DNA of 64,000 nt from the NCBI RefSeq assembly GCF_028898945.1, contig NZ_CP118607.1, forward strand, positions 372,001 to 436,000, in the 5' to 3' direction. The translations under genes were made by a program, and so were the position numbers. Positions 3,443 to 25,579 of the stretch are shown here, in pieces; positions within the stretch are counted from its first letter, which is position 1, and each line of letters begins with the position of its first letter. A model generated the notes under the pieces. That model was not told the origin of the DNA, searched no databases, and was given only the letters and a program-made list of their open reading frames with translations. The stretch is from Pseudomonas sp. PSKL.D1. GTDB lineage: Bacteria; Pseudomonadota; Gammaproteobacteria; Pseudomonadales; Pseudomonadaceae.

Positions 3443-3472
3443 GCCTGCTGCGCCTGAGCGCGGCAGGCTTTT
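3443..3472 (+). terminator. Rho-independent terminator after damX
   Basis: A 10-bp stem GCCTGCTGCG / CGCGGCAGGC (one G-T pair) with a 6-base loop CCTGAG is followed by TTTT. It lies 60 bp after the damX stop and ends the aroK-aroB-damX transcript. Confidence 0.85.
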
Positions 3473-3585
3473 CTGTCCCAGACTGCCGGCCACAAGCCAA
3501 CGTTGCAGTCATGGCTGAAACGCTTCAGACTCGAGCCAAGCCGCTATCACGGCGCATGGCGCAAAAACATTCAAAATTGCGACAT

Positions 3586-3614
3586 AAATTTTCAATGGTG
3601 AGACATGAAAATTT
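3586..3614. promoter_or_regulatory. AT-rich inverted repeat upstream of gltB
   Basis: Two perfect 9-bp arms, AAATTTTCA at 3586-3594 and TGAAAATTT at 3606-3614, are separated by 11 bp. They sit about 140 bp upstream of gltB in an AT-rich stretch unusual for this GC-rich sequence. The centre-to-centre distance of 20 bp (two helical turns) suits a dimeric regulator. The regulator is not identifiable from sequence. The rest of the 373-bp damX-gltB gap shows nothing else I can name. Confidence 0.4.
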
Positions 3615-3755
3615 GTGGGTATGACTGTCGCTGTGCAACAATGGTTTTCCATGGCCACCGCAAAAAAGCTGGCGTTTGATCGGCGTGGATGGTAAGTGGT
3701 TGTTAAAAAAGAGATTTGCCTCCGGTTGAGAGGTGAACCTGGTGAGAAAGTGTCT

Positions 3756-6700: not shown

Positions 6701-8201
6701 GATCTTTGACCTCAAGCAGGTCAACCCGCAGGCGCTGGTATCGGTCAAGCTGGTGGCAGAAGCTGGCGTCGGCACCATTGCCGCTGGCGTGGCCAAGGCT
6801 TATGCCGACCTGATCACCATTTCCGGTTATGACGGTGGTACTGGCGCTTCGCCGCTGACCTCGATCAAGTACGCCGGCGCCCCGTGGGAACTGGGCCTGG
6901 CTGAAACCCACCAGACCCTGCGCGGTAACGACCTGCGCGGCAAGGTACGGGTACAGACTGACGGCGGTTTGAAGACCGGCCTGGACGTGATCAAGGCCGC
7001 CATCCTCGGCGCCGAGAGCTTCGGCTTCGGCACCGCGCCGATGATCGCCCTGGGCTGCAAATACCTGCGTATTTGCCACCTGAACAACTGCGCCACTGGC
7101 GTAGCCACCCAGAACGACAAGCTGCGCAAGGACCACTACATCGGCACCGTCGATATGGTGATCAACTTCTTCACTTTCGTCGCAGAAGAAACCCGTGAGT
7201 GGCTGGCCAAGCTGGGCGTACGCAGCCTGGGCGAGCTGATCGGCCGCACTGACCTGCTCGACGTGCTGCCAGGCGACACCGAGCGCCAGCAGTACCTGGA
7301 CCTGACTCCACTGCTGGGCAGCTCGCACATTCCTGCCGACAAGCCGCAATTCTGCGAAGTCGACAAGAACCCGCCGTTCGACAAGGGCGAATTGGCCGAG
7401 AAGATGGTTGAAATGGCCCTGCCGGCCATTCGCGATCAGGCCGGTGGCGAGTTCAGCCTCGACATCTGCAACTGCGACCGCTCCATTGGTGCCCGCATCT
7501 CTGGCGAAATCGCCAAGCTGTACGGCAACCAGGGCATGGCCGACAAGCCGATCACCTTCCGCTTCAAGGGCACTGCGGGCCAGAGCTTCGGCGTGTGGAA
7601 CGCCGGTGGCCTGAACCTGCACCTGGAAGGCGACGCCAACGACTACGTCGGCAAGGGCATGACTGGCGGCAAGGTGACCATCGTGCCGCCCGCTGGCAGC
7701 CCGTTTGCAACCCAGCACAGCGCCATCGTCGGCAACACCTGCTTGTACGGTGCCACGGGCGGCAAGCTGTTTGCCGCCGGTACTGCGGGCGAGCGCTTCG
7801 CTGTGCGTAACTCCGGCGCCCACGCTGTTGTCGAGGGTACTGGCGATCACTGCTGTGAATACATGACCGGTGGCTTTGTTTGCGTGTTGGGCAAGACCGG
7901 TTACAACTTCGGTTCTGGCATGACTGGCGGCTTTGCCTACGTGCTCGACATGGACAACACCTTCGTCGACAAACTCAACCACGAGCTGGTGGAAATCCAG
8001 CGTATCAGTGGTGAGGCGATGGAGGCCTACCGCAGCCACCTGGCGCGTGTCCTTGGCGAATACGTGGAAGAGACCGGCAGCGAGTGGGGGCGTGAGCTCT
8101 TCGAGAACCTGGACGACTACGTGCGGCGCTTCTGGCTGGTCAAGCCGAAGGCGGCCAACCTCAAGCAACTGCTGTCCAGCACCCGCGCCAACCCGCAGTA
8201 A
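3756..8201 (+). CDS. gltB: Glutamate synthase (NADPH), large subunit
   Basis: Transfers the glutamine amide nitrogen to 2-oxoglutarate, giving two glutamates; it is the GOGAT half of ammonium assimilation. The protein has 1481 residues, the normal length. The class II glutaminase domain starts at Cys15 ([11 protein letters not shown]), which becomes the N-terminus after propeptide removal. Then come the central domain, the FMN-binding synthase barrel ([15 protein letters not shown]), the 3Fe-4S cysteines in [12 protein letters not shown], and the C-terminal beta-helix with repeated GxxxTGG motifs. The start ATG at 3756 gives the canonical short propeptide; an upstream in-frame extension is not conserved-looking. 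gltD follows after 106 bp. Confidence 0.99.
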
Positions 8202-8218
8202 GAACAGCTGCAAGTGAC

Positions 8219-8289
8219 GGCCCCGTGCGCGGGGCCCGTCGTGCTCAAGTGATCGTCTTGCAGCTTGCGGCCTGAGGCCGGCAACTGCG
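8219..8289 (+). other. Two hairpins between gltB and gltD
   Basis: A GC hairpin (GGCCCC, loop GTGCGC, GGGGCC) lies at 8219-8236. An imperfect palindrome at 8261-8289 is centred on GGCCTGAGGCC. Neither has a U-tract, so they are more likely mRNA-processing or stabilising structures that set the gltB:gltD ratio than terminators. Confidence 0.4.
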
Positions 8290-8304
8290 GTAAAGAGGTT
8301 TTGA

Positions 8305-9726
<1,422 letters not shown>

Positions 9727-9978: not shown

Positions 9979-11043
9979 ATGACTGCCTTGAAGAATGACC
10001 GTTTCCTGCGTGCTCTGCTAAAGCAACCCGTAGACGTCACCCCAGTGTGGATGATGCGCCAAGCCGGCCGTTATCTGCCTGAGTACCGCGCCAGCCGCGC
10101 CAAGGCCGGCGACTTCATGAGCCTGTGCATGAATCCGCAGTTCGCCTGCGAGGTTACCCTTCAGCCGCTGGAGCGCTACCCACTGGATGCGGCGATCCTG
10201 TTCTCGGACATCCTCACCATTCCCGACGCCATGGGCCAGGGCCTGTACTTCGAAACCGGTGAAGGCCCGCGTTTCAAGAAAGTTGTCAGCACGTTGGCCG
10301 ACATCGAGGCGCTGCCGATCCCTGATCCGCAAAAAGACCTCGGCTATGTGATGGACGCCGTCAGCACCATCCGCCGCGAGCTGAACGGCCGTGTACCGTT
10401 GATCGGCTTCTCCGGCAGCCCGTGGACGCTGGCCACCTACATGGTGGAGGGCGGCTCGTCGAAGGACTTCCGCAAAACCAAGGCGATGGCCTACGACAAC
10501 CCCGAGGCCTTGCACTTGCTGCTGGACAAGCTGGCCCAGTCGGTCACCAGCTACCTGAACGGCCAGATCCTTGCCGGTGCCCAGGCTGTGCAGATCTTCG
10601 ACACTTGGGGTGGCAACTTGTCTGCTGCTGCCTACCAGGAGTTCTCCCTGTCCTACATGCGCAAGATCGTAAGCGGCCTGATTCGTGAGCATGAAGGGCG
10701 CAAGGTACCGGTGATCCTGTTCACCAAGAATGGTGGGCTGTGGCTGGAAAGCATTGCCGAAGCTGGCGCCGATGCGCTGGGCCTGGACTGGACCTGCGAA
10801 ATCGGTGATGCCCGCCGCCGTGTGGGTGACAAAGTGGCTCTGCAAGGCAACATGGACCCGACGGTGCTGTACGCCAAGCCAGAGGCCATCCGCAAGGAAG
10901 TGGCGCGTATTCTGGCCAGCTATGGCAAAGGTTCTGGCCACGTGTTCAACCTTGGCCATGGCATTACACCGGAAGTCGACCCGGAGCATGCTGGCGTGTT
11001 CATCAACGCTGTGCACGAACTGTCGGCGCAGTACCACGCGTAA
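9979..11043 (+). CDS. hemE: Uroporphyrinogen decarboxylase
   Basis: Decarboxylates the four acetate side chains of uroporphyrinogen III to give coproporphyrinogen III in heme synthesis; cytoplasmic, cofactor-free. The protein has 354 residues, the normal length. The signature [16 protein letters not shown] occurs near residue 22, with the conserved [29 protein letters not shown] and NLGHGI motifs. It is monocistronic: a BIME and promoter region precede it and a strong terminator follows. Confidence 0.99.
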
Positions 11044-11051
11044 CGCCTCGG

Positions 11052-11085
11052 GAAGGGAGATTGGCCTGAGCAATCTCCCTTCTTT
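11052..11085 (+). terminator. Rho-independent terminator after hemE
   Basis: A perfect 12-bp stem GAAGGGAGATTG / CAATCTCCCTTC with a 7-base loop is followed by TTTC, 8 bp after the hemE stop. Confidence 0.9.
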
Positions 11086-11215
11086 CTTTCGCGACCCCTC
11101 CCACATTTCTCAGCGAATCTGCCTTACACAACACCGCTCTGCGCCTCTTTAGCATTCGACGTATCCCGCCAGTTCAAATACTGGCCAGAACATCGAGCGC
11201 ATGTGGAGGTGTTAC

Positions 11216-12676
11216 ATGAAGCAGTGCGTAGTACGAACAGGCTTATTGGCAGGTGGTGCACTTGCCGCCCTGAGCGTGGTTGGTTTCTTGCCAAACGTGG
11301 CAAATGCCCATGGCTACCTGAGCGACCCACCCTCCAGGGATTACGCGTGTCGCCTTAGGCAGAACACTGGCTGTGGTGCGGTAGTTGACGAACCGCAAAG
11401 CGTTGGCGAAACCAACAAGGGTTACCCTGCCAGCGGGCCAGCTGATGGCAAGATCGCAAGCGGTGGCATATCGAGGTTTGCAGCGATTGATGAGCAATCT
11501 GCCAATCGCTGGACACTCATGCAGATTGACAACCCTGCGGTCGAATTCGATTGGTACTACACCAAGGCTCACCTAACTACCGGGTGGGAGTATTTCATCA
11601 GCAAACCGGGTTGGAACCGCAACGCCCCATTGGCGCGTTCGACCTTCGATTCAAAACCGTTCTGCACCGTCGACGGCAAGGGCGAATTCCCGCGCGATAC
11701 GAATACCCCGGGTCCAGGCCGGGAAAAGCACGCCTGCATCATCCCGGCGGATCGAACCGGGCACCATGTGATTCTTGGTGTGTGGACCGTTGCTGACACG
11801 GTCAACGCCTTCTACAAGGTGATCGATGTCGATATCCAAATTGAAGGGGGCCCGGCGCCGGAGTGGCGGCAGGTCAGCAGCATAGACCCGCATCGCGACC
11901 TTCAGGTAGGTGACAAGGTCAAGGCCAGAGCCTTCGTCGGTTCTTCGGAGGACGAGTCGTACAGTGCCGAAATCTCCATTGGCACTGCAGAGGAGGCGAT
12001 TGCGGCCAATTGGTCTTACAAGCTCGCTGCCCAACTCAACCAGACCCAGACGCTGATCCGCGCCGGGCATAAGGATTCGGAAGGCATTATTGCGCCTATC
12101 CAGGGCCCTAATATCATCTACGCCAAACAGGAGAGCGGTGTTACAGGCTACGAACTGGAGTTTGACGGTGAGCCAGGTGACGATGCCTATATGCATGTGC
12201 ACGGCCTGAAGCCGGAGTATGTGCTTGAGGGCGGCAAGGCGACGCTCGATTTTTCAGTCATGACCAACCGTGACCTGGAGGTGCGCGCCACCCTGTACAA
12301 CAGCGCCGACAGCCAGGTTGGGTTTGCGAGCGGACAAGTGGACTCCACCACCCGGCCATTTTCGCTGCACGCCGAGAGCTCGGCAGGCGAGCACCTGCTC
12401 AAGATTGTCGGTACCGATGAAGACAGCCGCGTTCTGCTACAGCAGGAGCATCCCGTGCTGCTGCGCTCGGCAGACGGCGGCGAGCACGATTTTGTCTACC
12501 CGCAATCGATTGACGTCTACCGCGAAGGTACGCGTGTGCTTCAGCCCAAAGATGGCGGTGTCTACGAGTGCCTGCCATTCCCGGTGGATGGTTGGTGCCG
12601 CATTTACTCCTCCAGTGCGAACCAGTATGAGCCAGGGGTAGGGAGCGACTGGCAATCGGCCTGGATCAGGCGTTGA
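11216..12676 (+). CDS. gbpA: Secreted GbpA-type lytic polysaccharide monooxygenase (AA10), chitin-binding
   Basis: The protein has 486 residues. A signal peptide of about 31 residues ends ANA, so the mature protein starts with His32 (HGYLSDPPSR), required for the copper histidine brace. The second brace residue is His119 (TKAHLTTGW) and the axial Phe199 lies in AFYKVIDV. The AA10 domain spans about 32-212 and resembles Vibrio GbpA throughout (KPGWNRNAPL, FDSKPFC, ILGVWTVADT). GbpA domain 2 (about 213-320) and domain 3 follow. A C-terminal carbohydrate-binding module (about 425-486) carries the aromatic residues of chitin-binding CBM5/12/73 modules. GGAGG stands 7 bp before ATG 11216, which decides this start over the ATG at 11201. 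Oxidative cleavage of chitin is the expected activity. gspC begins 32 bp later. Confidence 0.93.
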   Translation: MKQCVVRTGLLAGGALAALSVVGFLPNVANAHGYLSDPPSRDYACRLRQNTGCGAVVDEPQSVGETNKGYPASGPADGKIASGGISRFAAIDEQSANRWTLMQIDNPAVEFDWYYTKAHLTTGWEYFISKPGWNRNAPLARSTFDSKPFCTVDGKGEFPRDTNTPGPGREKHACIIPADRTGHHVILGVWTVADTVNAFYKVIDVDIQIEGGPAPEWRQVSSIDPHRDLQVGDKVKARAFVGSSEDESYSAEISIGTAEEAIAANWSYKLAAQLNQTQTLIRAGHKDSEGIIAPIQGPNIIYAKQESGVTGYELEFDGEPGDDAYMHVHGLKPEYVLEGGKATLDFSVMTNRDLEVRATLYNSADSQVGFASGQVDSTTRPFSLHAESSAGEHLLKIVGTDEDSRVLLQQEHPVLLRSADGGEHDFVYPQSIDVYREGTRVLQPKDGGVYECLPFPVDGWCRIYSSSANQYEPGVGSDWQSAWIRR

Positions 12677-12708
12677 TGGTGGCGGCGCGCTGGATGCCGG
12701 GCTAGATC

Positions 12709-13146
12709 ATGACCTTGCGCTTGCTGTGCTGGGTGGTAATCCCGTCCCTGACCCTCGCAGGTATGGCGTGGCAGGGGCGGGCGATTCCGCAAACCAGGCA
12801 AATCGAGCCCGCCGCGTTGTCGCAACCCTTTGCCAGCGCACCGCCATTACCGTTGCCCGGTGCCCTGTTGGCGTTGGCATTCGGCCTGAGCACGGAGCCT
12901 GATACGCAGCCCGAGCGCAAGGACATTGTGCTCAAAGCCACATTCGTGCCCACCCACGGCCCTGCACGCGCGCTGCTGCTGGTTGACGCCAAAGCGGCTA
13001 TCCATCAGGTGGGGGACCGCCTACCGGGTGGTGCCACCGTGCGGCGGATAAGCACTGATGCACTCGTCATCTGGGCCAATGGCCGGGAGCAGCGCCTGGC
13101 CTTGTCGGGCTCTGCCCCGTTTCAATATTTGCAGGAGTTCAAATGA
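12709..13146 (+). CDS. gspC: Type II secretion protein GspC, short form
   Basis: The protein has 145 residues. One N-terminal membrane helix (residues 2-20) is followed by a Pro-rich linker and a periplasmic homology region (about 68-140, VLKATFVPTHGPARALLLV). GspC links the inner-membrane platform to the secretin through that domain. The PDZ or coiled-coil domain usual at the C-terminus is absent, so this is a minimal GspC. The stop overlaps the gspD start (ATGA). Identity is supported by gene order and architecture rather than a strong motif. Confidence 0.8.
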   Translation: MTLRLLCWVVIPSLTLAGMAWQGRAIPQTRQIEPAALSQPFASAPPLPLPGALLALAFGLSTEPDTQPERKDIVLKATFVPTHGPARALLLVDAKAAIHQVGDRLPGGATVRRISTDALVIWANGREQRLALSGSAPFQYLQEFK

Positions 13147-14960
13147 CCTTCAGGCCGAAGCTTCAGCGTGCAGGGCTGGGCGCCTACTTCATGCTGACGA
13201 GCCTCTGTGCGTTGGCCGAAGCCACCACGTGGCAAATGTCGATGAATGATGCCGACGTGCGTGATGTGGTACGGGAAGTGGGCGCCATCCTGGACCAGTC
13301 AATCATCCTCGACCCTCGTGTCCAAGGGCGCATCACCGTGCTTTCCAATGAGCGGCTGGACCGCGAAGGCGTTCGGCGATTGTTCTATTCGGTGCTCAAT
13401 GCCCATGGTTTTGCGGCGGTTAACGACGATCAACGCCTGTTGATCCTGCCTGCAAGCGAGGCCAAGGCATGGGCCAATCATCAGCTGGATGCTATTCCGG
13501 CAGCGTTCACCACTCGGGTTTTCAGCCTGTCCGGCAGCCTGGCCGCAGACCTGGCAGGCTTGTTACGGCCTCTGGTATCCGGCAATGGATACATCGGGCC
13601 CTCCAGTTCGGCCAATGCGTTGGTGGTGACGGACTCTGCGGCCAATCTGGACAGGCTTCAGGCGCTTGTGGCGCAGCTCGACAGTGGACAACGGCATGAC
13701 CATGAACTGGTTATGCTCAAGCAAGGTCGGGCCACCGAATTGCAACCAACGCTTGAAGCTGCCGCGGGTGGCGTGGACAGCGGCGTGCGCGTGCTTGCCG
13801 ACAGTCGCAGCAACGGCTTGCTGATTCTTGGCCCGGCAAAATCCCGGCAGCGGCTGGCCCAGTTGGCGCGCTCGCTGGATGTACCGGCTCCGCCGACGTC
13901 GCAGAACTGGCGCGTGGTGCGCTTGCAGCACGGCAACGCCGAACAGTTGGCCGAAGTGCTCGGCGAGGTGGGCGGCAAACTGGGCGGTGATCCGGCTCGC
14001 GACGGGCAGGCCATGGGTGCGCTGGCTACCCAGGCGCTGGTGAAAGCGGACGTCAGCCAGAATGCGCTGGTGCTTCTCGGCCCACCCGAAGTCATGGCAG
14101 GCCTGGAAAACATCATCGGGCAACTCGACCAGCCCAGGGCGCAAGTGTTGATCCATGCTGCAATCGTCGAGGTGAGCGGCGATATCAGCGAGGCGCTGGG
14201 GCTGCAATGGGGCGTGGACAGCGGCAGCCTTAAAGGGGGTGTCAGCTTTCCTGACAGCGGCATTTCTTTGCCCGCGCTGCTTGGTGGTACTGCTTTAAAC
14301 CCGGCAGGTGCAGCATTGGCAATCGGCTCGGACCGCTTTGCCGCGCTGGTGACTGCGCTGGCCAGCAACACCCGCAGCAACTTGCTGTCCACCCCTAGCC
14401 TGTTGACACTGGACAATCAGGAAGCGCAGATCCTGGTGGGCCAGAACGTGCCCTTCAAATCGGGCTCCTACGCTACCCCAGGCAATGGTTCGGAAAACCC
14501 CTTCACCACCATCGAGCGCAAGGACATCGGCATCAGCCTGAAAATCCGGCCGCACATCAACGAAGGGAACAGCCTGAGGCTGGAGGTCGAGCAGGAAAGC
14601 TCCGAGTTGGCACCCAGCACGCTTGAAAATGACCTGATCACCAACAAGCGGACCCTTAAAAGCACCATTCTGGCGGCCGACGGCGAGATCATCGTAATCG
14701 GCGGGCTGATCAAGGACAGCGTGCGCAGTGAACAGCGCAGCGTGCCGTTTCTGGGCCGCTTGCCGTTGATTGGCGGCCTGTTCCGTTGGCAAAGGGATGT
14801 TGACGAGAAAACCAACCTGATGGTGTTTCTGCGCCCGACCATCCTGCGCAGCCAGCAAGAAGCGGTCGAGGCGGGCCAGCGTGCTTATCGTGAAGTGCGC
14901 GCGCCGGGGGCGCCCAGCCTGCCGGACGAAGTAGACGGGCTGTTCGAGGCGCGCCCATGA
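13143..14960 (+). CDS. gspD: Type II secretion outer-membrane secretin GspD
   Basis: The protein has 605 residues with a cleavable signal peptide (about 27 residues, ending LAEA). N0 and N1-N2 ring domains occupy about 28-340; N0 starts WQMSMNDADVRDVVREVG. The secretin barrel domain follows, with LSTPSLLTLDNQEAQILVGQ and the conserved VPFKSGSY segment. The barrel end motif is LPLIGGLFR with NLMVFLRPTILR. It is slightly shorter than canonical XcpQ/GspD (about 650 aa). No lipobox is seen, and no pilotin gene is nearby, so assembly must rely on another route. It overlaps gspC and gspE by 4 bp each. Confidence 0.95.
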   Translation: MTFRPKLQRAGLGAYFMLTSLCALAEATTWQMSMNDADVRDVVREVGAILDQSIILDPRVQGRITVLSNERLDREGVRRLFYSVLNAHGFAAVNDDQRLLILPASEAKAWANHQLDAIPAAFTTRVFSLSGSLAADLAGLLRPLVSGNGYIGPSSSANALVVTDSAANLDRLQALVAQLDSGQRHDHELVMLKQGRATELQPTLEAAAGGVDSGVRVLADSRSNGLLILGPAKSRQRLAQLARSLDVPAPPTSQNWRVVRLQHGNAEQLAEVLGEVGGKLGGDPARDGQAMGALATQALVKADVSQNALVLLGPPEVMAGLENIIGQLDQPRAQVLIHAAIVEVSGDISEALGLQWGVDSGSLKGGVSFPDSGISLPALLGGTALNPAGAALAIGSDRFAALVTALASNTRSNLLSTPSLLTLDNQEAQILVGQNVPFKSGSYATPGNGSENPFTTIERKDIGISLKIRPHINEGNSLRLEVEQESSELAPSTLENDLITNKRTLKSTILAADGEIIVIGGLIKDSVRSEQRSVPFLGRLPLIGGLFRWQRDVDEKTNLMVFLRPTILRSQQEAVEAGQRAYREVRAPGAPSLPDEVDGLFEARP

Positions 14961-16420
14961 CAATGCCCCTGACGTTCGGATTCGCACGGCGCCACGGCAT
15001 TTTGCTGGACCAGCAAGACGTGCAGCCATGCTTGCTGATGCGCGAAGGGGCATCTCTGCATTCGCTGTCTGAGGCATTGCGGCAACTGGGGGCTGGCTGG
15101 CCATTGCGCTGCGTCGATGCCAGCACCTTTGCCGAGCGCCTGGCGCATTGTTATGGCGACACGCAGGATGCCGCACAGACGCTGGTGCAGGGTATCGATC
15201 AACAAATCGACTTGACCCGGTTGAGCGAAGAGTTGCCACAGACGAGCGATCTGCTCGACCAGCAGGGCGATGCGCCAATCATCCGCTTGCTCAATGCGCT
15301 GCTCAGCGAGGCTGTCAGGTCCGGGGCCTCGGATATTCATCTGGAAACCTTCGAGGAGCAACTGCGGGTGCGCATGCGCATCGATGGCGTCATGCGGGAA
15401 GTGCTCTCGCCGCCGCGCGCGCTGTCGGCGTTTCTGGTGTCGCGAATCAAGGTGATGGCGCGCCTGGACATTGCCCAGAAGCGCATTCCGCAGGATGGCA
15501 GGATCAGCCTGCGGCTTGCCGGTCGAGAGGTGGATGTGCGCGTATCGACGTTGCCGGCAGCACATGATGAGCGTGTGGTGCTGAGGCTTCTGGACAAGCA
15601 GGCAGTCAGGCTGGATATCGAGCATATGCACATGCAGGAGGGCACTCGATCAGCGTTCCTGAGCTTGCTCGCCAAACCCAACGGCATCGTCCTGGTCACC
15701 GGCCCGACCGGATCAGGCAAGACCACCACGTTGTACACGGCACTGTCGGTACTCAATCAGGTGACGCGCAACATACTTACCGTGGAAGACCCGATCGAAT
15801 ACCACCTGCCCGGCATTGGCCAGACGCCTGTCAACACAAAGGTCGACATGACGTTCGCCAGAGGGCTGCGAGCCATTTTGCGGCAAGACCCTGACGTGGT
15901 GATGGTGGGTGAAATCCGTGACCGTGAAACCGCCGACATTGCCGTGCAGGCTTCGCTGACCGGCCATCTGGTGTTGTCCACCTTGCACACCAACAGCGCG
16001 CTGGGGGCTATCAGCCGTTTGACCGACATGGGGGTCGACCCTTGTCTGCTGGCGTCTTCACTGTCGGGGGTGATGGCACAGCGGCTGGTTCGCAAACTGT
16101 GCCCCCACTGCAAGGTGGGCAGTGCGCCGGATAGCGCGACTGTCGGTCTGTTGGGGCACCCGGTTGACCTGCCTTCAGTGGTCTTTCGCCCGAAGGGCTG
16201 CGAGGCATGCCATCAAGGCTACAGCGGTCGCCTTGCGTTGCATGAGCTGATTATCGTCACTCCCGACCTGGCCGAAGCCATCCACGAAAGGAACTCACCG
16301 TCACACCTTCTTGAGCTTGCCCGCCAGCACACTCCCAGCTTGTTTCAGCACGGGGTGCTGCGCGTGTGTGAGGGGGAAACGAGTGTTGAGGAACTGCTCC
16401 GGGTCGCGGGGCAGCAATGA
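14957..16420 (+). CDS. gspE: Type II secretion assembly ATPase GspE
   Basis: The protein has 487 residues. It is a hexameric cytoplasmic ATPase that drives pseudopilus assembly. Walker A GPTGSGKTTTLYT lies near residue 248, the Asp box region TVEDPIEYHLPGIGQ follows, then Walker B DPDVVMVGEIRD and the His box LTGHLVLSTLHTNS. A zinc-binding tetracysteine is formed by CPHC (near 382) and CEAC (near 415), as in GspE but not in all PilB relatives. ATGA overlaps join it to gspD and gspF. Confidence 0.97.
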   Translation: MTMPLTFGFARRHGILLDQQDVQPCLLMREGASLHSLSEALRQLGAGWPLRCVDASTFAERLAHCYGDTQDAAQTLVQGIDQQIDLTRLSEELPQTSDLLDQQGDAPIIRLLNALLSEAVRSGASDIHLETFEEQLRVRMRIDGVMREVLSPPRALSAFLVSRIKVMARLDIAQKRIPQDGRISLRLAGREVDVRVSTLPAAHDERVVLRLLDKQAVRLDIEHMHMQEGTRSAFLSLLAKPNGIVLVTGPTGSGKTTTLYTALSVLNQVTRNILTVEDPIEYHLPGIGQTPVNTKVDMTFARGLRAILRQDPDVVMVGEIRDRETADIAVQASLTGHLVLSTLHTNSALGAISRLTDMGVDPCLLASSLSGVMAQRLVRKLCPHCKVGSAPDSATVGLLGHPVDLPSVVFRPKGCEACHQGYSGRLALHELIIVTPDLAEAIHERNSPSHLLELARQHTPSLFQHGVLRVCEGETSVEELLRVAGQQ

Positions 16421-17628
16421 CCGGCATGCGATTCAGATTCGAGGCCCGCGACGGTAACGGGGTACGACAGCGGGGCACGCTGGAAGCATCGGCTGCGTTG
16501 CAGGCGCGGCAGGCATTGCGCGCGCGCGGGTGGTCCATCGTTTCGATCAGGCCTGTGCGGTTTTATCTACCACCGGGATTGGCCACTACCAATCCGTTGG
16601 GGGGTGGTCGACTGTCTATAGCCACTCGGCAATTGGCGACCTTGTTGCGTGCAGGCATGCCGCTGACGGAGGTGCTTCAAGCCGTTTCATCGCAGAGCGA
16701 GCGCGCAGATGTTCGTCAGGTATTACGTGCAGTCGGCGAGCGGGTGGCCGAAGGGTTTACTCTGGCGCAAGCCCTGGAAGAGCACCCTCAGGCCTTTCCA
16801 CCTGTTTACCGCGCCACGGTGGCCGCCGCGGAGCGTTCGGGCTACCTGCCGGAGGTGTTCGAGCGCTTGGCCGACCATGCTGAGCGACAACAGGCACTGC
16901 GCCAGAAGGTGAAACTGGCGTTGGTCTACCCAGCCATCTTGCTGATGGTCTCCATCCTGGTTGTGGGCTTTTTGCTGGGCTACGTGGTGCCCGACGTGGT
17001 CCAGGCTTTCGCCCGAGGCCACGCGCAATTGCCCTTCGCGACGCGCCTCCTGATGGTCATGAGTGATTTCACGGCGCGCTTTGGCTGGCTTGCGCTGATG
17101 GTGGGTGCCTTGGCAGTGATGCTGGCCTGCTGGGCACTGCGGCAGCCCGCCAGGCGCCAGCGTTGGGATGAGTTTGCGTTGCGTCTGCCACTGTGGAGCG
17201 CGTTTGTCCGGGCCAGCGATGCCGCACGTTTTGTCGCCACGTTGGCAACCCTTGGCAGAAGCGGCGTCGCGTTGGTCGAAGCCATGCACATCGCAGCGGC
17301 TGTCACCAGCAACCTTGCATTGCGCGAGCGCCTGGCCTGTGCTGCGCGCGAAGTCGCCGAAGGCACGAGCCTTGCCAGCAGCCTGACGCGCTCTGCCGCG
17401 CTACCTGTGTTGACCCTGCACATGATTGCCAGTGGGGAGCGGGCCGGTGAGCTCGACACCATGCTGGAGCGTGCCGCCGACCTGCAGGAAAAGCACCTCG
17501 CGTCCCGTATCGCCTTGCTGGTCAGCCTGTGCGAGCCCGTCATGCTGCTGACGATGGGCGGCATTGTGCTGTTCATCGTGCTCGCCATCCTGATGCCCAT
17601 CCTCAACCTCAACCAACTGGTCACCTGA
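16417..17628 (+). CDS. gspF: Type II secretion inner-membrane platform protein GspF
   Basis: The protein has 403 residues, as in the family. Two T2SSF domains are each followed by hydrophobic helices: VYPAILLMVSILVVGFLLGYV near 170, a helix near 215-240, and EPVMLLTMGGIVLFIVLAILMP near the C-terminus. The motifs RQLATLLRAGMPLTEVL and SGERAGELDTMLERAAD are diagnostic. GspF sits at the centre of the platform and contacts GspE and GspL. Confidence 0.96.
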   Translation: MTGMRFRFEARDGNGVRQRGTLEASAALQARQALRARGWSIVSIRPVRFYLPPGLATTNPLGGGRLSIATRQLATLLRAGMPLTEVLQAVSSQSERADVRQVLRAVGERVAEGFTLAQALEEHPQAFPPVYRATVAAAERSGYLPEVFERLADHAERQQALRQKVKLALVYPAILLMVSILVVGFLLGYVVPDVVQAFARGHAQLPFATRLLMVMSDFTARFGWLALMVGALAVMLACWALRQPARRQRWDEFALRLPLWSAFVRASDAARFVATLATLGRSGVALVEAMHIAAAVTSNLALRERLACAAREVAEGTSLASSLTRSAALPVLTLHMIASGERAGELDTMLERAADLQEKHLASRIALLVSLCEPVMLLTMGGIVLFIVLAILMPILNLNQLVT

Positions 17629-17630
17629 CT

Positions 17631-18077
17631 ATGGCTAACCGCACCCTTCAACGCCCGCAATGGGGCTTCACGCTGATCGAAATCATGGTAGTGGTCATCA
17701 TCCTCGGAGTGCTCGGCGGACTGGTTTTGCCCAATGTCATGAGCCGCCCGGACCACGCCAAGCTGACGGCAGCCCGCACCGACCTGCAGTCGATCTCGAC
17801 GGCGCTTGAAGTTTACCGGTTGGACAACGGCCGTTACCCAAGCACTGCCCAAGGGCTGGAAGCGCTGGTGATGCGCCCCACGCAAGCTCCGTTGCCCAGG
17901 CTGTGGAATGCTTCAGGCTACCTCAACAGCGTACCGATCGACCCTTGGGGGGCTGCCTACCAGTACGCCAGCCCGGCGACCCGCTCCAATCAAGGCTTCG
18001 ACCTGTTTTCCCTGGGGGGGGATGGGCGGCCAGGTGGCGACGCTCTGGATGCCGACATCGGCAACTGGCAACCATGA
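17631..18077 (+). CDS. gspG: Major pseudopilin GspG
   Basis: The protein has 148 residues. Its type IV prepilin leader is cleaved after Gly12, and the mature Phe1 and Glu5 are present in GFTLIEIMVVVIILGVLGG. The globular part has the GspG signatures NGRYPSTAQGLEAL and VPIDPWGAAYQY. The acidic C-terminal loop (GDALDADIGNW) corresponds to the calcium site of major pseudopilins. The ATG at 17631 directly follows the gspF stop. It needs a prepilin peptidase, which is not encoded in this cluster. Confidence 0.97.
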   Translation: MANRTLQRPQWGFTLIEIMVVVIILGVLGGLVLPNVMSRPDHAKLTAARTDLQSISTALEVYRLDNGRYPSTAQGLEALVMRPTQAPLPRLWNASGYLNSVPIDPWGAAYQYASPATRSNQGFDLFSLGGDGRPGGDALDADIGNWQP

Positions 18078-18526
18078 AGCGCCGACAGATGTGCGGGTTC
18101 ACCTTGCTGGAGGTGCTGCTGGTGCTGGCCGTGCTCGGCACCGTGATCAGCATGGCCAGGTTGGTACCCCTGGGCAGCCCTCATCGGCTTGCACAGCAGG
18201 ACGCGCAGATGTTCTTGCAGCTGTTCGAGCAGTCACGCGACCGTGCGTTGCTTGAGGGGCAATTGCTGGGTATGCACATCGATGCTGGCGGTTTTCAGGT
18301 GATGCGATACACCGAGCGCGGTTGGTATCTCACTGGGAGGCGGGTGGCGAGCGACCTGGAACTGCAGCTGGAGCTGGATAGCGTCAGCGAATTGCCTGGG
18401 AATGCCCCACAACTTCAGCTCAGCGGTGATCAGGAACACGCGCCGTTCGTACTGGCGTTTGGTCGGGCCGGTGAAACGCTGGCGTGTGTCGTGAGTGATG
18501 GCCTTGATGCGCGCATTGGTTGCTGA
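18074..18526 (+). CDS. gspH: Minor pseudopilin GspH
   Basis: The protein has 150 residues. The prepilin cleavage site is after Gly8 with Phe1 and Glu5 (CGFTLLEVLLVLAVLGTV). The globular domain has the EQSRDRALLEGQLLGMHID pattern seen in GspH, and the C-terminus ends with two cysteines. The start overlaps the gspG stop (ATGA). It forms part of the pseudopilus body below the I-J-K tip. Confidence 0.88.
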   Translation: MKRRQMCGFTLLEVLLVLAVLGTVISMARLVPLGSPHRLAQQDAQMFLQLFEQSRDRALLEGQLLGMHIDAGGFQVMRYTERGWYLTGRRVASDLELQLELDSVSELPGNAPQLQLSGDQEHAPFVLAFGRAGETLACVVSDGLDARIGC

Positions 18527-18878
18527 GCGAGGGTTCACCTTGCTGGAGGTGCTGATCGCGCTGGCCGTTTTTGCCGTGCTGGCTACCGCTGGCGGCCTTG
18601 CCATGCAACACGTGTTGCAGCAGGCCCGGCAGTTGAACGAGCGGTTGTTTGCCAGTTGGGTTGCCGATAACCATCTGGCAGAAATGAAGCTTCAGTCCAG
18701 TACGGGTGCAGGGCAGCGTGTGGTCACCATTCGTTTCGCAGAGCAGAGTTGGCAGGTGAAGGAGACACGTCAACGTAGTGTGGGATGGCTGGAGGTAAAC
18801 CTGCAGGTGGCGTTGTCAAAGGACGGGCAGGTGCTGTACCAGACCACCGGCTGGCTGGAAATTGCCCATGGCAGCTAG
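18498..18878 (+). CDS. gspI: Minor pseudopilin GspI
   Basis: The protein has 126 residues from ATG 18498; GTG 18495 and ATG 18507 are equally possible starts. Prepilin motif: Gly12 then FTLLEVLIALAVFAVLATAG. The family features AMQHVLQQARQLNERLFASWVADNHLAEM and the WQV segment are present. It overlaps gspH by 29 bp in another frame. It nucleates the pseudopilus tip together with GspJ and GspK. Confidence 0.92.
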   Translation: MALMRALVAERGFTLLEVLIALAVFAVLATAGGLAMQHVLQQARQLNERLFASWVADNHLAEMKLQSSTGAGQRVVTIRFAEQSWQVKETRQRSVGWLEVNLQVALSKDGQVLYQTTGWLEIAHGS

Positions 18879-19461
18879 CAGCGCTGCCTGGGGGCGCCGG
18901 CAACTTGGCTTCACCTTGCTGGAGCTGTTGCTGGCTGTGTCGATCTTTGCGTTGCTGGCTGCTGGCAGCGCGCAGCTGTTGAGCGTCATGGTCAAAGCAG
19001 ATGCTGCGCGGCAAGGGTCTGCTGAATCCTTCAGACGCCTTTCCAGAGCAATGGGCCTGCTTCAGCAGGACACATTGCATGCAGTCTTCCCTTCGCAAAT
19101 GAAAACCGCTGGCCACGCGGTGATGTTGCAGGGGCAGAGCCTGCAATGGATGGTGAACAGCCCTCAAACGCCCGGCCCGTCTTATCTGGGTGAGATGCAG
19201 GTGGTCCGTTACTGGGTTGAGGCTGGCGTACTGTGGCGTCAGCGTCGAACCCTGGCTGAGGGTGTGGGGCGTGCTCAACGGCTGCTCGAAGGCGTAACGG
19301 CATTGCAGTGGCGCGTGTTCGTGCCGGGGCAAGGATGGCGAACCGACTGGCCAGCCTCTGCGGGTGGAAATGATCGCCCCCTGGCCATAGAAGTCACCTT
19401 GTCTACCGAGCGCACCCGGCAGATTCGCCGTGTGCTGCACATGGCGAGCACACACCAGTGA
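18868..19461 (+). CDS. gspJ: Minor pseudopilin GspJ
   Basis: The protein has 197 residues from ATG 18868. The prepilin motif is Gly14 then FTLLELLLAVSIFALLAAGS. The pattern RLSRAMGLLQQDTLHAV follows the helix, as in other GspJ proteins. It overlaps gspI by 11 bp and gspK by 4 bp. Tip component of the pseudopilus. Confidence 0.92.
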   Translation: MAASSAAWGRRQLGFTLLELLLAVSIFALLAAGSAQLLSVMVKADAARQGSAESFRRLSRAMGLLQQDTLHAVFPSQMKTAGHAVMLQGQSLQWMVNSPQTPGPSYLGEMQVVRYWVEAGVLWRQRRTLAEGVGRAQRLLEGVTALQWRVFVPGQGWRTDWPASAGGNDRPLAIEVTLSTERTRQIRRVLHMASTHQ

Positions 19462-20300
19462 AGGCCGTTCAACAGCGTGGGGTGGCGTTGGTTACCGTGT
19501 TGCTGATCATGGCCCTGGTCATGATGCTGATTGTGGCAATGGTTCGCAGCCATCAGTTATCGGTTGCTGCCTTGGGTTACCAGACTGAAGCCTTGCGAGC
19601 CATGCAGTTGATTTTGGCCGTGGAACGCAAGGCACTCCTGAGGTTGCGAGGGCAGTTCGACGAAAGCCTGGCTGTAATCCATGCGGGGCAACCCTGGGCA
19701 CAGGCTCAGGTTCTTGAACTGGGGCAGGCCAGTGTGCACATGCAGGTTGAGGACTTGGCCGGGCGCTTCAACCTCGGCGCACTTGTACGAAACGGCCGTG
19801 TTGACCCCGTGCTTTTGAAGCGTTGGCAACAACTGTGTCAGGCCATGGGTGTGGAGCCTCCAGCCATGGAAACACTGCCTGTGGATACTTTGCTCGACAT
19901 CAGCCAGTTGCGGGTGTTGCCCGGCGTCGATACAGCTTTTTTGCAACGCCTGGCGCCTTGGGTCGTGGTACTGCCCCCACAGGCCGGGCTCAACATCAAT
20001 ACGGCTTCGGCACGCATGATCGCCATGCTGGAAGGTCTTGAGCCCGCTACCGCCAAGCGCCTGGTTGCAGCGAGACCTGAAGCAGGCTACGCCAGCGTGC
20101 AGGGCTTTCTGGCCGACCCGATTCTGGCAGGGGGCACCGTTACGGGGCGAGGCCTTGCGGTTGGCAGCCGGTGGTTTGGGTTGACACTGCGAACTGATCT
20201 TGACGGTGTGCGTGTGCAGCTTTACAGCGAAGTGGAACTGGACGCCAGAAGCGATCGGTTCCGTGTCATGCGGCGTGCGCTTTCCCGAGTACCGAGGTAG
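19458..20300 (+). CDS. gspK: Minor pseudopilin GspK
   Basis: The protein has 280 residues with a GTG start inside the gspJ stop. Prepilin cleavage is after Gly8 (QRGVALVTVLLIMALVMM). Position +5 is Thr rather than Glu, the normal exception in GspK. The large globular domain contains a helix-hairpin-helix-like insert (LNINTASARMIAMLEGLEPA). It caps the pseudopilus tip. Confidence 0.93.
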   Translation: MKAVQQRGVALVTVLLIMALVMMLIVAMVRSHQLSVAALGYQTEALRAMQLILAVERKALLRLRGQFDESLAVIHAGQPWAQAQVLELGQASVHMQVEDLAGRFNLGALVRNGRVDPVLLKRWQQLCQAMGVEPPAMETLPVDTLLDISQLRVLPGVDTAFLQRLAPWVVVLPPQAGLNINTASARMIAMLEGLEPATAKRLVAARPEAGYASVQGFLADPILAGGTVTGRGLAVGSRWFGLTLRTDLDGVRVQLYSEVELDARSDRFRVMRRALSRVPR

Positions 20301-20307
20301 GTGTCGA

Positions 20308-21609
20308 ATGACTGAGCACATCATCTATCTGTTGCCAGCAGGCATCGGCGGTGCCGAGGCACAGTGGCCCGTCAGGGTTCGGACGTCGGGTGGCGAGGTG
20401 TACCGTTCAGTGCTTGGAGAATTGCCCCTGCCGCAAGTTGGCCAGGCGGTCGTGCTGGTCCTGCCGATGGAGTTGTTGTCGTGTTGTGGGACCGGGCCGC
20501 TGTCAACCCGTCGGCCCAGCCGGCAGACACTCGCCTATGCCGTTGAGGAGCAACTGGATACTGCGCTAGAAACCCTGCACCTTGCCTTCAGTGCCGATGG
20601 CGACCACGTGCTCGCCATTGATCGGGCCCTGTTCGAACGCGTGCTGGCGTGCCTGCGGGAGCGGGGCATCGAACCCAGGGCAATTTATGCTGATGCCGAT
20701 ATGTTGGCTCAGAAAGGGCCCGCTGCTGTGTGGCTGGAAGGCCGTTGGCTGATAGGGGGCGGGGAAAATGTACGGCTGGCGGCCAGTGCGCAGATAGCGC
20801 AGGCGTTGGTGGACCGTCTACCCCCCATGCACTGGATGGCCGAACCGGATTACGCCGGTGACCCCTTGTGTAACCGGCGTGTTGGCGATGCCCTCGCCGA
20901 GCTTTGTCACAAGCCGGCTGGCGCCATCGACCTGTTACAAGGGGGCTATGCCAGGCGGCATGGGCTGTTCCCCTGGCGGCACCTGGTGGGAGCACTGGTA
21001 TTGTCGGGTTTGCTGGTCAGCCTGGCCGGGCAGTGGCGTAGCGACCAAGTGGTACGACATGCCGATGAGTTGCGGGCAGCGAGCCAGCAGCCTGACAGGC
21101 AGTTAGTACAGGCGCCGCCTTCTTCCATGCAGCACTTGGCTGAAATGAGCGAGCAGTTGGTCGCTGCGGGAGGGCTGACCATCGCGCTTGCACAGCACAC
21201 TGAAGGCGAGGGTTGGCAGGTCAATGTCGTCGCCCACGGTTTTGCAGACCTGGAGCGGTTGCGTGAGCGACTGCCTAACTTGCAAGTCGGACAAGCCCGG
21301 CAACGTGGCGCCGAGGTGCGTGCCACGCTGGTTTGGGCGGGGGGGCAGCAGCGGCAAGTACCAGTGCCGCCCACTGCAGCCTGGACCGCAGCGCGTCTGA
21401 GCGAGCAGGCGCAGGCGAGTGGGCTGCGAATTACTGACCTGCAGAGTTCCGAGCAGCAGGTAATCATGGCCCTGCAAGGGCCACCACGTGTATTGATGGA
21501 GTGGATTCACTCGCTGGAGCAGGGCGGGGGGCAGTTGCATGAAATCCGTTTGCAGGTTGACGGTGAGCAAATGCTGGCGCACGTCGCACTGCAGTCGGGG
21601 CAACCTTGA
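20308..21609 (+). CDS. gspL: GspL with a fused GspM-like C-terminal domain
   Basis: The protein has 433 residues. Residues 1-215 form the cytoplasmic actin-like GspL domain that binds GspE (IIYLLPAG, VLPMELLSCC, LAYAVEEQL). One membrane helix lies at about 224-242. The periplasm holds a ferredoxin-like domain at about 290-344 (GWQVNVVAHGFADLERLRE), the normal GspL end. A second similar domain at about 358-428 (WTAARLSEQAQASGLRI to LQVDGEQMLAHVAL) matches the periplasmic half of GspM. No separate gspM follows; the next gene is unrelated. The fusion reading is an inference from length and layout. Confidence 0.8.
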   Translation: MTEHIIYLLPAGIGGAEAQWPVRVRTSGGEVYRSVLGELPLPQVGQAVVLVLPMELLSCCGTGPLSTRRPSRQTLAYAVEEQLDTALETLHLAFSADGDHVLAIDRALFERVLACLRERGIEPRAIYADADMLAQKGPAAVWLEGRWLIGGGENVRLAASAQIAQALVDRLPPMHWMAEPDYAGDPLCNRRVGDALAELCHKPAGAIDLLQGGYARRHGLFPWRHLVGALVLSGLLVSLAGQWRSDQVVRHADELRAASQQPDRQLVQAPPSSMQHLAEMSEQLVAAGGLTIALAQHTEGEGWQVNVVAHGFADLERLRERLPNLQVGQARQRGAEVRATLVWAGGQQRQVPVPPTAAWTAARLSEQAQASGLRITDLQSSEQQVIMALQGPPRVLMEWIHSLEQGGGQLHEIRLQVDGEQMLAHVALQSGQP

Positions 21610-21680
21610 TGCACGTTAAGTTTGGCTTCAGCGGGGTTCGCTAGGATGCATCCATCAGAACCCCAACAGGATCATGCCAA

Positions 21681-22028
21681 ATGAAAGCTCGTTACCTCGC
21701 CATCATCCTTGCCCCGCTTTTCAGCACCGCTGCCCTGGCTGCCGGTTATACCGGGCCTGGCGCCCAGCCGGTTACCACGGTTGCTGCCGCCAACGAGGCC
21801 GCCGACGATACGCCGGTGGTGCTGCAGGGCTTTGTTACCAAGAAGATCAACAACGACGACAAGTACGAGTTCAACGACAACACCGGCACCATCAACGTCG
21901 AAATCGATGACGAAGACCTGCCTGCCACGCCGTTCAACGAGAAGACCAAGGTGAAGCTGACCGGTGAGGTGGAGAAGCACCTGATGAGCCGTGAGGTGGA
22001 TGTGGATATCGTCGAGATCGTCAATTGA
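21681..22028 (+). CDS. YgiW/YdeI-type periplasmic OB-fold stress protein (BOF family)
   Basis: The protein has 115 residues. A signal peptide (MKARYLAIILAPLFSTAALAA) is followed by a single bacterial OB-fold (about 45-113, VVLQGFVTKKINNDDKYEFND). The family (YgiW, YdeI, VisP) is linked to tolerance of peroxide, cadmium, acid and cationic peptides in enterics; the exact role in Pseudomonas is not known to me. It has its own AACAGGATC leader and is separated from gspL by 71 bp, so it is probably not part of the secretion operon. Confidence 0.88.
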   Translation: MKARYLAIILAPLFSTAALAAGYTGPGAQPVTTVAAANEAADDTPVVLQGFVTKKINNDDKYEFNDNTGTINVEIDDEDLPATPFNEKTKVKLTGEVEKHLMSREVDVDIVEIVN

Positions 22029-22035
22029 TCTGATG

Positions 22036-22108
22036 GTCTTTTCGCGGGGCAAACCCGCTCCTACCGGCCCTCTGCGCGCCCAGTGGGAGCGGGTTCACCC
22101 GCGAATGC
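22036..22108. repeat. REP palindrome pair between convergent genes
   Basis: TTCGCGGGGCAAACCCGCTCCTACCGG is followed by an inverted partner (GTGGGAGCGGGTTCACCCGCGAAT). It fills the 81-bp gap between the OB-fold gene and the convergent MFS gene and may act as a bidirectional transcript end. Confidence 0.8.
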
Positions 22109-23461: not shown

Positions 23462-24379
23462 ATGGAACTGCGCCATCTGCGTTACTTCATCGCGGTAGCC
23501 GAAGAGCTGCATTTTGGCCGTGCGGCCCAACAGCTGGGCATTTCACAACCGCCCCTTAGCCAGCAGATTCAGGCGCTGGAGCTGGAGCTGGGCGCGCGCC
23601 TTTTCGAGCGTACCAATCGTCGGGTTGAGCTGAGTGAGGCCGGCCGGCTGTTTCTGGAAGAAGCTCGCCAGGTGCTGGCGCAGGTCGAAAAGGCGGCGGA
23701 CGTGGCACGGCGCGCGCAATTGGGCGAGCTGGGCGAAATGAAAATAGGCTTCACGTCCTCGGCGCCATTCACGTCAAAGATCCCCAAAGCCATTCACGCC
23801 TTCCGCCAGCGCTTCCCTGCGGTGCACCTGAACCTGAAGGAAATGAGCAGCCGGGATGTCGCCGAAGGCGTATACGACGAGTCCATCGAGGTGGGCTTGA
23901 TGCGGCCCATGCCTTTGCCTGAAGGGTTGGTGGCCACCGAATTGTTTCGCGAGCCGCTGGTTGCAGTGATCAATGCCTCGCACCCGCTGGCGCAGGGCAG
24001 CGAAGAGGGTGTGCACATGGCGGCATTGGCCCACGAGCCGTTTGTGTTCTTCCCTCGTAGCTACGGCAGCGGGCTGCATGCGCAACTGATGAGCCTGGCG
24101 CGGCAAGCCGGGTTCAGCCCGCACTTTTCGCAGGAGGCCGGGGAGGTAATGACCATCATTGGCCTGGTGTCAGCCGGTTTGGGTGTTTCGGTGCTTCCCG
24201 CATCGTTCCAGCGCATGCGTATCGACGACGTGGTTTACCGGACTTTGCTGGACGAGGGTGCCACCTCGGCGGTGTGGCTGGTGCAGCGCGAGCAAGGTGG
24301 CTCGGCGATGGCCAAGGCCTTCGCCGAGCTGGTGACCGGCCAGGCGAAGGTGTCAGGCCCAGCGGCGGAAGATCAGTGA
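23462..24379 (+). CDS. LysR-family transcriptional regulator
   Basis: The protein has 305 residues. The N-terminal winged helix-turn-helix (MELRHLRYFIAVAEELHFGRAAQQLGIS, positions 1-60) is canonical. The effector-binding domain follows from about residue 90 (GEMKIGFTSSAPFTSKIPKAI). ATG 23462 is chosen because this family starts MELRHLRYF. It is divergent from the MFS gene and likely its activator. Its last 27 bp overlap the 3' end of the convergent polyene ketosynthase gene. Confidence 0.95.
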   Translation: MELRHLRYFIAVAEELHFGRAAQQLGISQPPLSQQIQALELELGARLFERTNRRVELSEAGRLFLEEARQVLAQVEKAADVARRAQLGELGEMKIGFTSSAPFTSKIPKAIHAFRQRFPAVHLNLKEMSSRDVAEGVYDESIEVGLMRPMPLPEGLVATELFREPLVAVINASHPLAQGSEEGVHMAALAHEPFVFFPRSYGSGLHAQLMSLARQAGFSPHFSQEAGEVMTIIGLVSAGLGVSVLPASFQRMRIDDVVYRTLLDEGATSAVWLVQREQGGSAMAKAFAELVTGQAKVSGPAAEDQ

Positions 24380-25579
24380 CGTATTGACTCCACCGAAGGC
24401 GAAGTTGTTGTTCATCACGAACTCATGGCTCATGGCCCGGAAATCACCGGTGATGTAGTCCAGTTCGCCGCAGCGGGGGTCGACGTTATCGAGATTGAGG
24501 GTGTGCACGTAGCGGTCGCTGTTCATCATTTCGATGCTGAACCACGACTCCAGAGCACCGCAGGCGCCCAAGGTGTGGCCGAGGTAGCTCTTTTGTGAGC
24601 TGATCGGCATGCGTGCACCAAACAGGGTGCTGGTGGCCAGTGTTTCGGCAATGTCGCCTTGCTCGGTTGCCGTGCCATGCCCGTTGACGTAGCCGATGGC
24701 TTCGGGGGCCAGGGCCGCATCCTCCAGCGCAAGTTCCATGGCGCGGCCCATGGTGGCCTGCTCGGGGCGAGTGATGTGTTGCCCGTCGGCGTTGCTGCCA
24801 AAACCGACGACTTCGGCATGGATCCTCGCCCCGCGTGCCAGGGCGTGCTGCAGCTCTTCAAGCACCAGCATGCCGCCCCCTTCACCAATCACCAGGCCGT
24901 CACGGTCCTTGTCGTAGGGCCTTGGGGTCAGGTGCGGCGTGTCGTTCTTGAGGCTTGTGGCGTACAGGGCATCGAACACCATCGCTTCAGTGGGGCACAG
25001 CTCTTCGGCACCGCCGGCCAGCATCATCGGCAAACGCCCGTACTTGATGGCTTCGTAGGCGTAGCCGATGCCTTGACTGCCGCTGGTGCAGGCGCTGGAG
25101 GTGGGGATCAGGCGGCCGGTGAGGCCAAAAAAGATACTGATATTGGCAGCCGTGGTGTGTGGCATCATCCGCACGTAGGAGTTGGCATTCAGGCCATCGG
25201 CCACCGAATTCATCAGCATGTTGCCAAAGGTTTTTATTTCATCGGTGCTGCCAGTGGAAGAGCCACAGGCCACGCCCATGCGCCCGTCGCGGATGCTGGG
25301 GTCGCCGAGCAGCCCGGCATCGGCCAGGGCACGTTCCGCGGCGGCCACCGCCAGGCGTGACACCCGGCCCATGCTACGCAGTTGCTTGCGCGTCCAGTGG
25401 GCGGGCACTTCAAAATCATCGACCGGGCCGGCCAGGCGGGTGTTGAGCTCGGCAAAACGGTCCCACTCATGCATCCGGCGGATGCCGCTGTGTTGATTGG
25501 CGAAATGCCCGGCGATGGTTGCCCAGTCATTGCCCAGGGCAGTAATGCCGGCCATGCCGGTGACGACCACGCGGCGCAT
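24353..25579 (-). CDS. Beta-ketoacyl-ACP synthase (aryl-polyene, FabF-like, ApeO-type)
   Basis: The protein has 408 residues. It condenses malonyl-ACP with the growing polyene chain. The full Cys-His-His triad is present: Cys in SSACTSGSQGIGYA, His in VNGHGTAT and His in YLGHTLGACGALE. It ends FAFGGVNTSLIFRRW, as FabF proteins do. It is the last gene of the 17-gene operon, and its ATG overlaps the ketoreductase stop. In aryl-polyene systems such a synthase pairs with a chain-length factor, which is encoded here at the other end of the operon. Confidence 0.93.
   Translation of the reverse strand: MRRVVVTGMAGITALGNDWATIAGHFANQHSGIRRMHEWDRFAELNTRLAGPVDDFEVPAHWTRKQLRSMGRVSRLAVAAAERALADAGLLGDPSIRDGRMGVACGSSTGSTDEIKTFGNMLMNSVADGLNANSYVRMMPHTTAANISIFFGLTGRLIPTSSACTSGSQGIGYAYEAIKYGRLPMMLAGGAEELCPTEAMVFDALYATSLKNDTPHLTPRPYDKDRDGLVIGEGGGMLVLEELQHALARGARIHAEVVGFGSNADGQHITRPEQATMGRAMELALEDAALAPEAIGYVNGHGTATEQGDIAETLATSTLFGARMPISSQKSYLGHTLGACGALESWFSIEMMNSDRYVHTLNLDNVDPRCGELDYITGDFRAMSHEFVMNNNFAFGGVNTSLIFRRWA

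Follow-up and report, generated by a model that had tools for sequence, protein, structure and literature searches.

A GbpA-type lytic polysaccharide monooxygenase and a probably dedicated type II secretion system in Pseudomonas sp. PSKL.D1: a reduced version of a genus-wide module

Does a type II secretion system (T2SS) whose genes directly follow that of one chitin-active enzyme serve that enzyme alone? The question is raised by a 64,000-nucleotide stretch of Pseudomonas sp. PSKL.D1 (the window; positions 372001–436000 of a one-contig genome of 5.88 Mb with 100% completeness), in which a gene for a GbpA-type lytic polysaccharide monooxygenase (LPMO) of family AA10 is followed on the same strand by ten T2SS genes. 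Among named relatives, the best matches come from Pseudomonas sp. Teo4, P. monteilii, and P. sichuanensis. Here we compare the locus with its counterparts in the genus. We read it as the form, reduced in this lineage, of a Pseudomonas module whose two parts, a GbpA-type LPMO and a dedicated T2SS, are passed on together, and we give this reading a probability of about 0.72.

Linkage and co-divergence of LPMO and T2SS genes in Pseudomonas

To place the window locus in the genus, we searched 398 Pseudomonas genomes with the LPMO and with the last T2SS protein (GspL). The LPMO set comprised 91 matches, the window included, each aligned over roughly 400 residues or more with an identity of at least 45%; three partial rows, short but higher in identity, were excluded. 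T2SS genes adjoined the LPMO in all 91 cases, and the T2SS was of the same type as that of the window in 90. A GspL match lay 7.6–8.7 kb downstream on the same strand for 89 of the 91 LPMOs. Of the other two, both read directly, G167 (locus L066) has the same T2SS type, and G323 (L183) carries its LPMO inside a different T2SS class. Searched from the other side, the 89 strongest GspL matches (E up to 1.6e-20) all had an LPMO upstream. Eleven genomes gave a weaker GspL match and no listed LPMO, and all ten of them that were fetched had an Xcp-type order with divergent gspD; GspL matches weaker than the rows of these 11 genomes were left out of the comparison. In a second collection, from which the best 80 of 244 relatives were kept, all 80 loci belonged to Pseudomonas, hemE was matched in 77 of the 80, and gspD followed the LPMO in 79.

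The proteins also diverge in step. In the 82 of 106 loci that remained after length filters and removal of duplicates, protein distances of LPMO and GspD correlated with r = 0.933, and those of GspD and GspE with r = 0.936. The partial correlation given hemE was 0.869 for either pair, to be read with caution since hemE varies little (mean distance 0.055) and is a weak control. For LPMO and GspE, r was 0.868 (partial, 0.746), a value reached by 0 of 999 label shuffles. These results support well the view that an LPMO with its own T2SS forms a module across the genus and is not peculiar to the window strain. The sequence-only reading, an earlier interpretation of the window, had suggested a secretion machine devoted to one cargo; that suggestion gains from the linkage in 91 of 91 cases and from an LPMO–secretin divergence as tight as that of secretin and ATPase, while the arrangement has turned out to be widespread in the genus.

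Besides the weakness of hemE as a control, other points count against a dedicated, co-inherited pair. Part of the co-divergence would arise from physical linkage by itself. The link is not absolute, because L094 (P. putida 700447) has an intact LPMO in the same place but gave no T2SS match over the following 10 kb. Moreover, the genome of PSKL.D1 holds two other T2SS-like clusters, one with a T2SSM_b protein, which might export the LPMO.

Several loci depart from the common order. L082 (Pseudomonas sp. NKUCC02_KPG), one of the 79 with gspD, is without gspF–K: at 14581–16224 a single frame of 548 aa joins its gspE to the end of gspL. In L183 (G323) and L048 (G017), the LPMO gene lies between pseudopilin-like genes and before gspF–gspE of a different T2SS class, an arrangement that is a second kind of LPMO–T2SS linkage; G004 (L049), which has an LPMO match, resembles them.

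A published parallel is the Txc T2SS cluster of Pseudomonas paraeruginosa PA7, which reportedly adjoins its exported cargo, the chitin-binding GbpA homologue CbpE (PMC12369383, PMC8623646, PMC7902821); Txc is island-borne and under the control of TtsS/TtsR (PMC12369383). The window shares with Txc/CbpE the linkage of a T2SS to a GbpA-like LPMO. It differs in its site beside hemE, in the fusion of GspL and GspM (see below), and in having no TtsS/TtsR-type pair among the neighbouring open reading frames (ORFs) scanned. A second Pseudomonas clade is Txc-like: in L068, genes identified by visual inspection alone as those of a response regulator and a hybrid kinase are followed by LPMO, cytochrome b561, gspC, and gspD genes, the LPMO being 38% identical to that of the window. 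Matches to the L068 kinase were found near the LPMOs of L069, L070, L071, L168, and L181, and not in L167. In L168 (G346), four tandem GbpA-like LPMO genes stand directly before gspC–M (2025–8913), with a kinase match upstream. The hemE-type module is without the kinase/regulator pair of this clade. In our view it is a system of the Txc/CbpE kind at another site, and the window holds a variant of it; the earlier comparison with Txc/CbpE was apt.

For CbpD of P. aeruginosa, likewise an AA10 LPMO, secretion by a T2SS is reported (PMC7902821). Unlike the window, the xcp cluster (L072, from a P. aeruginosa plasmid record) has divergent gspCD and no neighbouring LPMO gene; its GspE is 59% identical. 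The T2SS that exports CbpD is presumably Xcp, and the likeness to the window lies in an AA10 LPMO leaving the cell by a T2SS. Our search of the open-licence literature found no LPMO-linked T2SS beyond CbpD/CbpE, an absence that proves nothing.

Gene string and predicted working of the window module

The features of the locus are listed in Table 1. Secretin, GspE ATPase, GspF, pseudopilins G–K, and the platform proteins C and L are all present, every reading frame of the module is intact, and the genome has one prepilin peptidase match. The close packing that the sequence-only reading had described is confirmed: from gspC to the last gene, each gene overlaps the next or lies within 7 bp of it, and the LPMO gene ends 32 bp before gspC.

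Table 1 Features of the LPMO–T2SS locus in the window.
Feature	Position	Strand	Remarks
Terminator-like hairpin after hemE	11050..11084	+	divides hemE from LPMO; 14-pair stem, -23.8 kcal/mol, z -2.54
GbpA-type AA10 LPMO	11216..12676	+	486 aa; signal peptide, AA10, GbpA_2, weak GbpA_D3, C-terminal stretch aligning with full-length GbpA
LPMO–gspC gap	12677..12708	+	32 bp; site of a cytochrome b561 gene in many relatives
gspC	12709..13146	+	short, 145 aa; PF11356 E 2e-5, 24.9 bits, below cut-off 27; collinear with relatives
gspD, secretin	13143..14960	+	PF00263, PF03958, N0 domain; TIGR02517 above cut-off
gspE, ATPase	14957..16420	+	PF00437 E 5e-150; TIGR02533 above cut-off
gspF	16417..17628	+	PF00482; TIGR02120 above cut-off
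gspG, major pseudopilin	17631..18077	+	PF08334; TIGR01710
gspH, minor pseudopilin	18074..18526	+	N_methyl; TIGR01708 78.6 bits, just below cut-off 80
gspI, minor pseudopilin	18495 (or 18498)..18878	+	PF02501; TIGR01707
gspJ, minor pseudopilin	18862 (or 18868)..19461	+	PF11612; TIGR01711
gspK, minor pseudopilin	19458..20300	+	PF03934, PF21687
gspL–gspM fusion	20308..21609	+	433 aa; PF05134, TIGR01709; L and M in one frame
GspL periplasmic ferredoxin-like domain of fusion	21112..21345	+	
GspM periplasmic ferredoxin-like domain of fusion	21364..21606	+	

The LPMO is a GbpA-type AA10 protein of multi-domain architecture, predicted to oxidise chitin. It matches PF03067 (E 6e-39), GbpA_2 (E 3e-20), and GbpA_D3 (E 3e-5; 24.5 bits, below the cut-off of 27), and scores 503 bits against the NCBIfam GbpA equivalog (cut-off 481). 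An AxA site precedes His32, and all 14 sequences aligned share His32, His119, and Phe199, which we take to be the copper and axial residues, in agreement with the earlier description of a GbpA-type AA10 enzyme with intact copper residues. CBP21 structures align from residue 32 onward, and the Vibrio GbpA structure 8gul gives a full-length match (residues 48–484, E 1e-100); to our knowledge, the Vibrio GbpA gene has no T2SS beside it. The nearest other LPMO is about 62% identical, and the genome has no second LPMO_10 match. Because no GH18 chitinase was matched in the genome (GH19 was not part of the search), the enzyme likelier serves the binding or damaging of chitin surfaces than growth on chitin.

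The hairpin between hemE and the LPMO gene has a 14-bp stem and a T-rich tail; therefore, the LPMO is probably the first gene of a transcription unit. A scan found no terminator-like site in the LPMO–gspC gap, a weak negative because it also missed the hemE–LPMO hairpin, and 12640–12720 folds no better than shuffled sequence (z -0.4); the earlier remark that no terminator separates the genes holds for this gap to that extent. A sigma-70 site scan of 10900–22100 was uninformative (0 found vs 2.5 expected). An alignment of the upstream regions of 11 loci displayed a TTCCTACAT-like block in several relatives and nothing firm in the window. Neither a kinase nor a response regulator was found among the ORFs scanned around the cluster (the neighbours at 8308–9726, 24353–25585, and 31696–33381 lay outside the scan), as the sequence-only reading had noted of two-component regulators; a LysR regulator is encoded at 23438.

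Under the module reading, transcription would start after the hemE hairpin and read from the LPMO gene through gspLM. The signal peptide would take the LPMO across the inner membrane, and folding and copper loading would take place in the periplasm. The pseudopilus, its subunits matured by the prepilin peptidase of the genome, would then push the LPMO through GspD, and outside the cell the enzyme would probably bind and nick chitin surfaces.

The immediate neighbours of the cluster are hemE and a BOF (OB-fold) gene (21681–22028), which starts 71 bp after gspLM; a close BOF relative follows the module in L052 and hemE–b561 in L170. Further along, 24353–34228 (minus strand) holds ketoacyl synthase, ketoreductase, LolA-like, and lipid A acyltransferase genes, resembling a cluster of the aryl polyene type.

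Cytochrome b561 beside the LPMO

In the nearest relatives, a gene of about 170–180 aa lies between the LPMO gene and gspC and encodes a prokaryotic cytochrome b561 (PF01292, E about 1e-17, two examples). One b561 query (E up to 1e-15) placed b561 no more than 400 bp downstream of the LPMO in 56 of the 91 genomes. Its position in the 80 loci of the second collection was between LPMO and gspC in 53 and after gspM in five; it was not found in 21, whose downstream stretch was often cut, and one locus was without T2SS. The window has no b561 gene between LPMO and gspC, and the four PF01292 proteins elsewhere in the genome include no orthologue (best E 1e-4; nothing at 1e-15). A b561 remnant in the 32-bp gap was considered and dropped: in a comparison with the 3′ ends of the b561 genes at 18 loci (some sharing a genome), the median score of the gap was equalled or exceeded by 33% of 540 random segments.

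Eight Pseudomonas b561 genes away from LPMOs were fetched, and six of these adjoin hemE. Five of the six hemE–b561 loci are without LPMO or T2SS match, and the notion that b561 is strictly bound to the LPMO was rejected, as these make up five of the eight loci fetched. The sixth, L159 (G066), keeps stubs: in 13615–16052, hemE is accompanied by b561 and by remnants of the LPMO (about 52 residues) and of GspM, the module having been deleted while b561 stayed. Outside the genus, a sample of 274 genomes of the class, one of them from the same family, gave two with a match to the b561 query at E 1e-12, and the stretches fetched were without LPMO or T2SS match.

These data bear on the possibility that the b561 of many relatives feeds electrons to the LPMO copper, in which case the LPMO of the window must use another source. 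Besides the 56 genomes and the five loci with b561 after gspM, b561 follows the LPMO in the Txc-like L068 and L167 and adjoins it in another family (L044); together with the PF01292 match and several invariant histidines shared by five aligned b561 sequences, this is consistent with a role as electron donor. Against it stand the 35 of 91 genomes without b561 directly after the LPMO, the lack of a b561 match in L071 and L168 of the Txc-like clade, and the five loci that keep hemE–b561 without LPMO or T2SS. Moreover, the b561 would be an inner-membrane protein, whereas the LPMO acts outside the cell. For b561 together with an LPMO, the open-licence literature yielded one unrelated paper, an absence that proves nothing. 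We consider such electron delivery possible and, on balance, doubtful.

The GspL–GspM fusion and alternatives to a working module

The last gene of the module encodes a complete GspL followed by the periplasmic ferredoxin-like domain of GspM only, without the GspM membrane segment. The GspM stalk and about 20 residues of the GspL stalk are also missing. The sequence-only reading had called the gene content reduced, which stands as a reduction in this lineage; it had overlooked the fusion and the absent b561 gene. L and M share a single frame in one of 102 loci, that of the window, and two protein searches gave no second case. No separate GspM was matched by PF04612 in the genome at E 0.1, and the module has no GspM with its own membrane segment.

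An AlphaFold model of the fusion matches XcpY/PulL and then PulM/EpsM, and in model comparison the PulL–PulM structures 8a9w, 8a9x, and 8ab1 match its two ferredoxin-like domains; Klebsiella has the same two domains on two proteins, in contrast to the single polypeptide of the window without GspM membrane anchor. The alignment folded (A4) had 22 rows, the periplasmic part of the window protein and 21 GspM pieces; in its model the GspL domain rests on one sequence, with pLDDT mostly 67–85, and the mutual placement of the domains is left uninterpreted. Two mixed GspL/GspM alignments were set aside, since A2 scattered the GspM pieces and A3 put GspL pieces on the M domain. A sequence search of the PDB with the fusion gave three matches at chance level. 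Between the window and six relatives, codon positions 1 and 2 of the M domain vary less (0.34–0.46 and 0.31–0.38) than position 3 (0.51–0.66). The values among the relatives are 0.30–0.35, 0.25–0.31, and 0.56–0.61, the window being slightly more relaxed. The open-licence literature contained no natural GspL–GspM or PilN–PilO fusion in our search, which is no proof of absence.

In published work, the ferredoxin-like domains of L and M pair with themselves as well as with each other, switching between homo- and heterodimers in step with coupled motion of the membrane segments (PMC3815138), and XpsM stabilises XpsL in Xanthomonas (PMC11981180). By analogy, GspL with a terminal GspM periplasmic domain would replace the GspL–GspM pair, the L–M contact being made in cis; the fused M domain could keep the stabilising contact and could not supply the membrane contacts of M. 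Several facts speak against a functional fusion. The same papers report that the C, L, and M membrane segments interact in Dickeya (PMC3815138) and that GspM (XpsM) is essential in Xanthomonas (PMC11981180), and the fusion has neither the membrane segment nor the stalk of GspM. Additionally, the window M part has the lowest mean identity in a group of 12 (0.349; next, 0.395; 104 columns, linker included), and relaxation of this domain is possible. Judging from sequence and models, we put the chances at about even that this is a working T2SS in which one GspL–GspM polypeptide replaces two proteins without the GspM membrane segment and stalk. Having only one cargo to export is perhaps what makes a fused platform tolerable.

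In other strains, deletions have worn the module down (L159, L082, and L094); therefore, early decay stays a rival to a streamlined working machine. In that case b561 and most of gspM were deleted, the T2SS is dead, and any export of the LPMO runs through another T2SS. The absence of b561 from the window, the loss of most of GspM, and a GspL stalk shorter by about 20 residues fit this view, as do the two other T2SS-like clusters. Yet every remaining gene has an intact frame, the fusion is in frame with both domain folds kept, and the codon pattern of the M domain is constrained, so that we regard early decay as unlikely. It is improbable that the T2SS is a general exporter with the LPMO as one of many cargoes: systems such as Xcp do export many proteins, and the clade's LPMO lies in another T2SS class in G323 and beside none in L094, but 90 of 91 LPMOs keep this T2SS partner, an LPMO accompanies all 89 strongest GspL matches, and the proteins diverge in step. 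That the fusion, carried by one genome only and with no close relative for comparison in the collections (nearest GspL 49% identical; nearest LPMO as above), is an assembly artefact is very improbable, as this would require an in-frame loss of about 200–250 bases (estimated from relatives) in a complete one-contig genome.

Many T2SSs export several proteins, which hampers the study of cargo recognition. A module of one cargo and one machine diverging in step across a genus offers dozens of natural variants for contact mapping. The natural L–M fusion tests the role of the GspM membrane segment: if it works, the GspM anchor would be dispensable once the two periplasmic domains are tethered. Finally, the b561 beside many of these LPMOs is a lead on the electron source of bacterial LPMOs.

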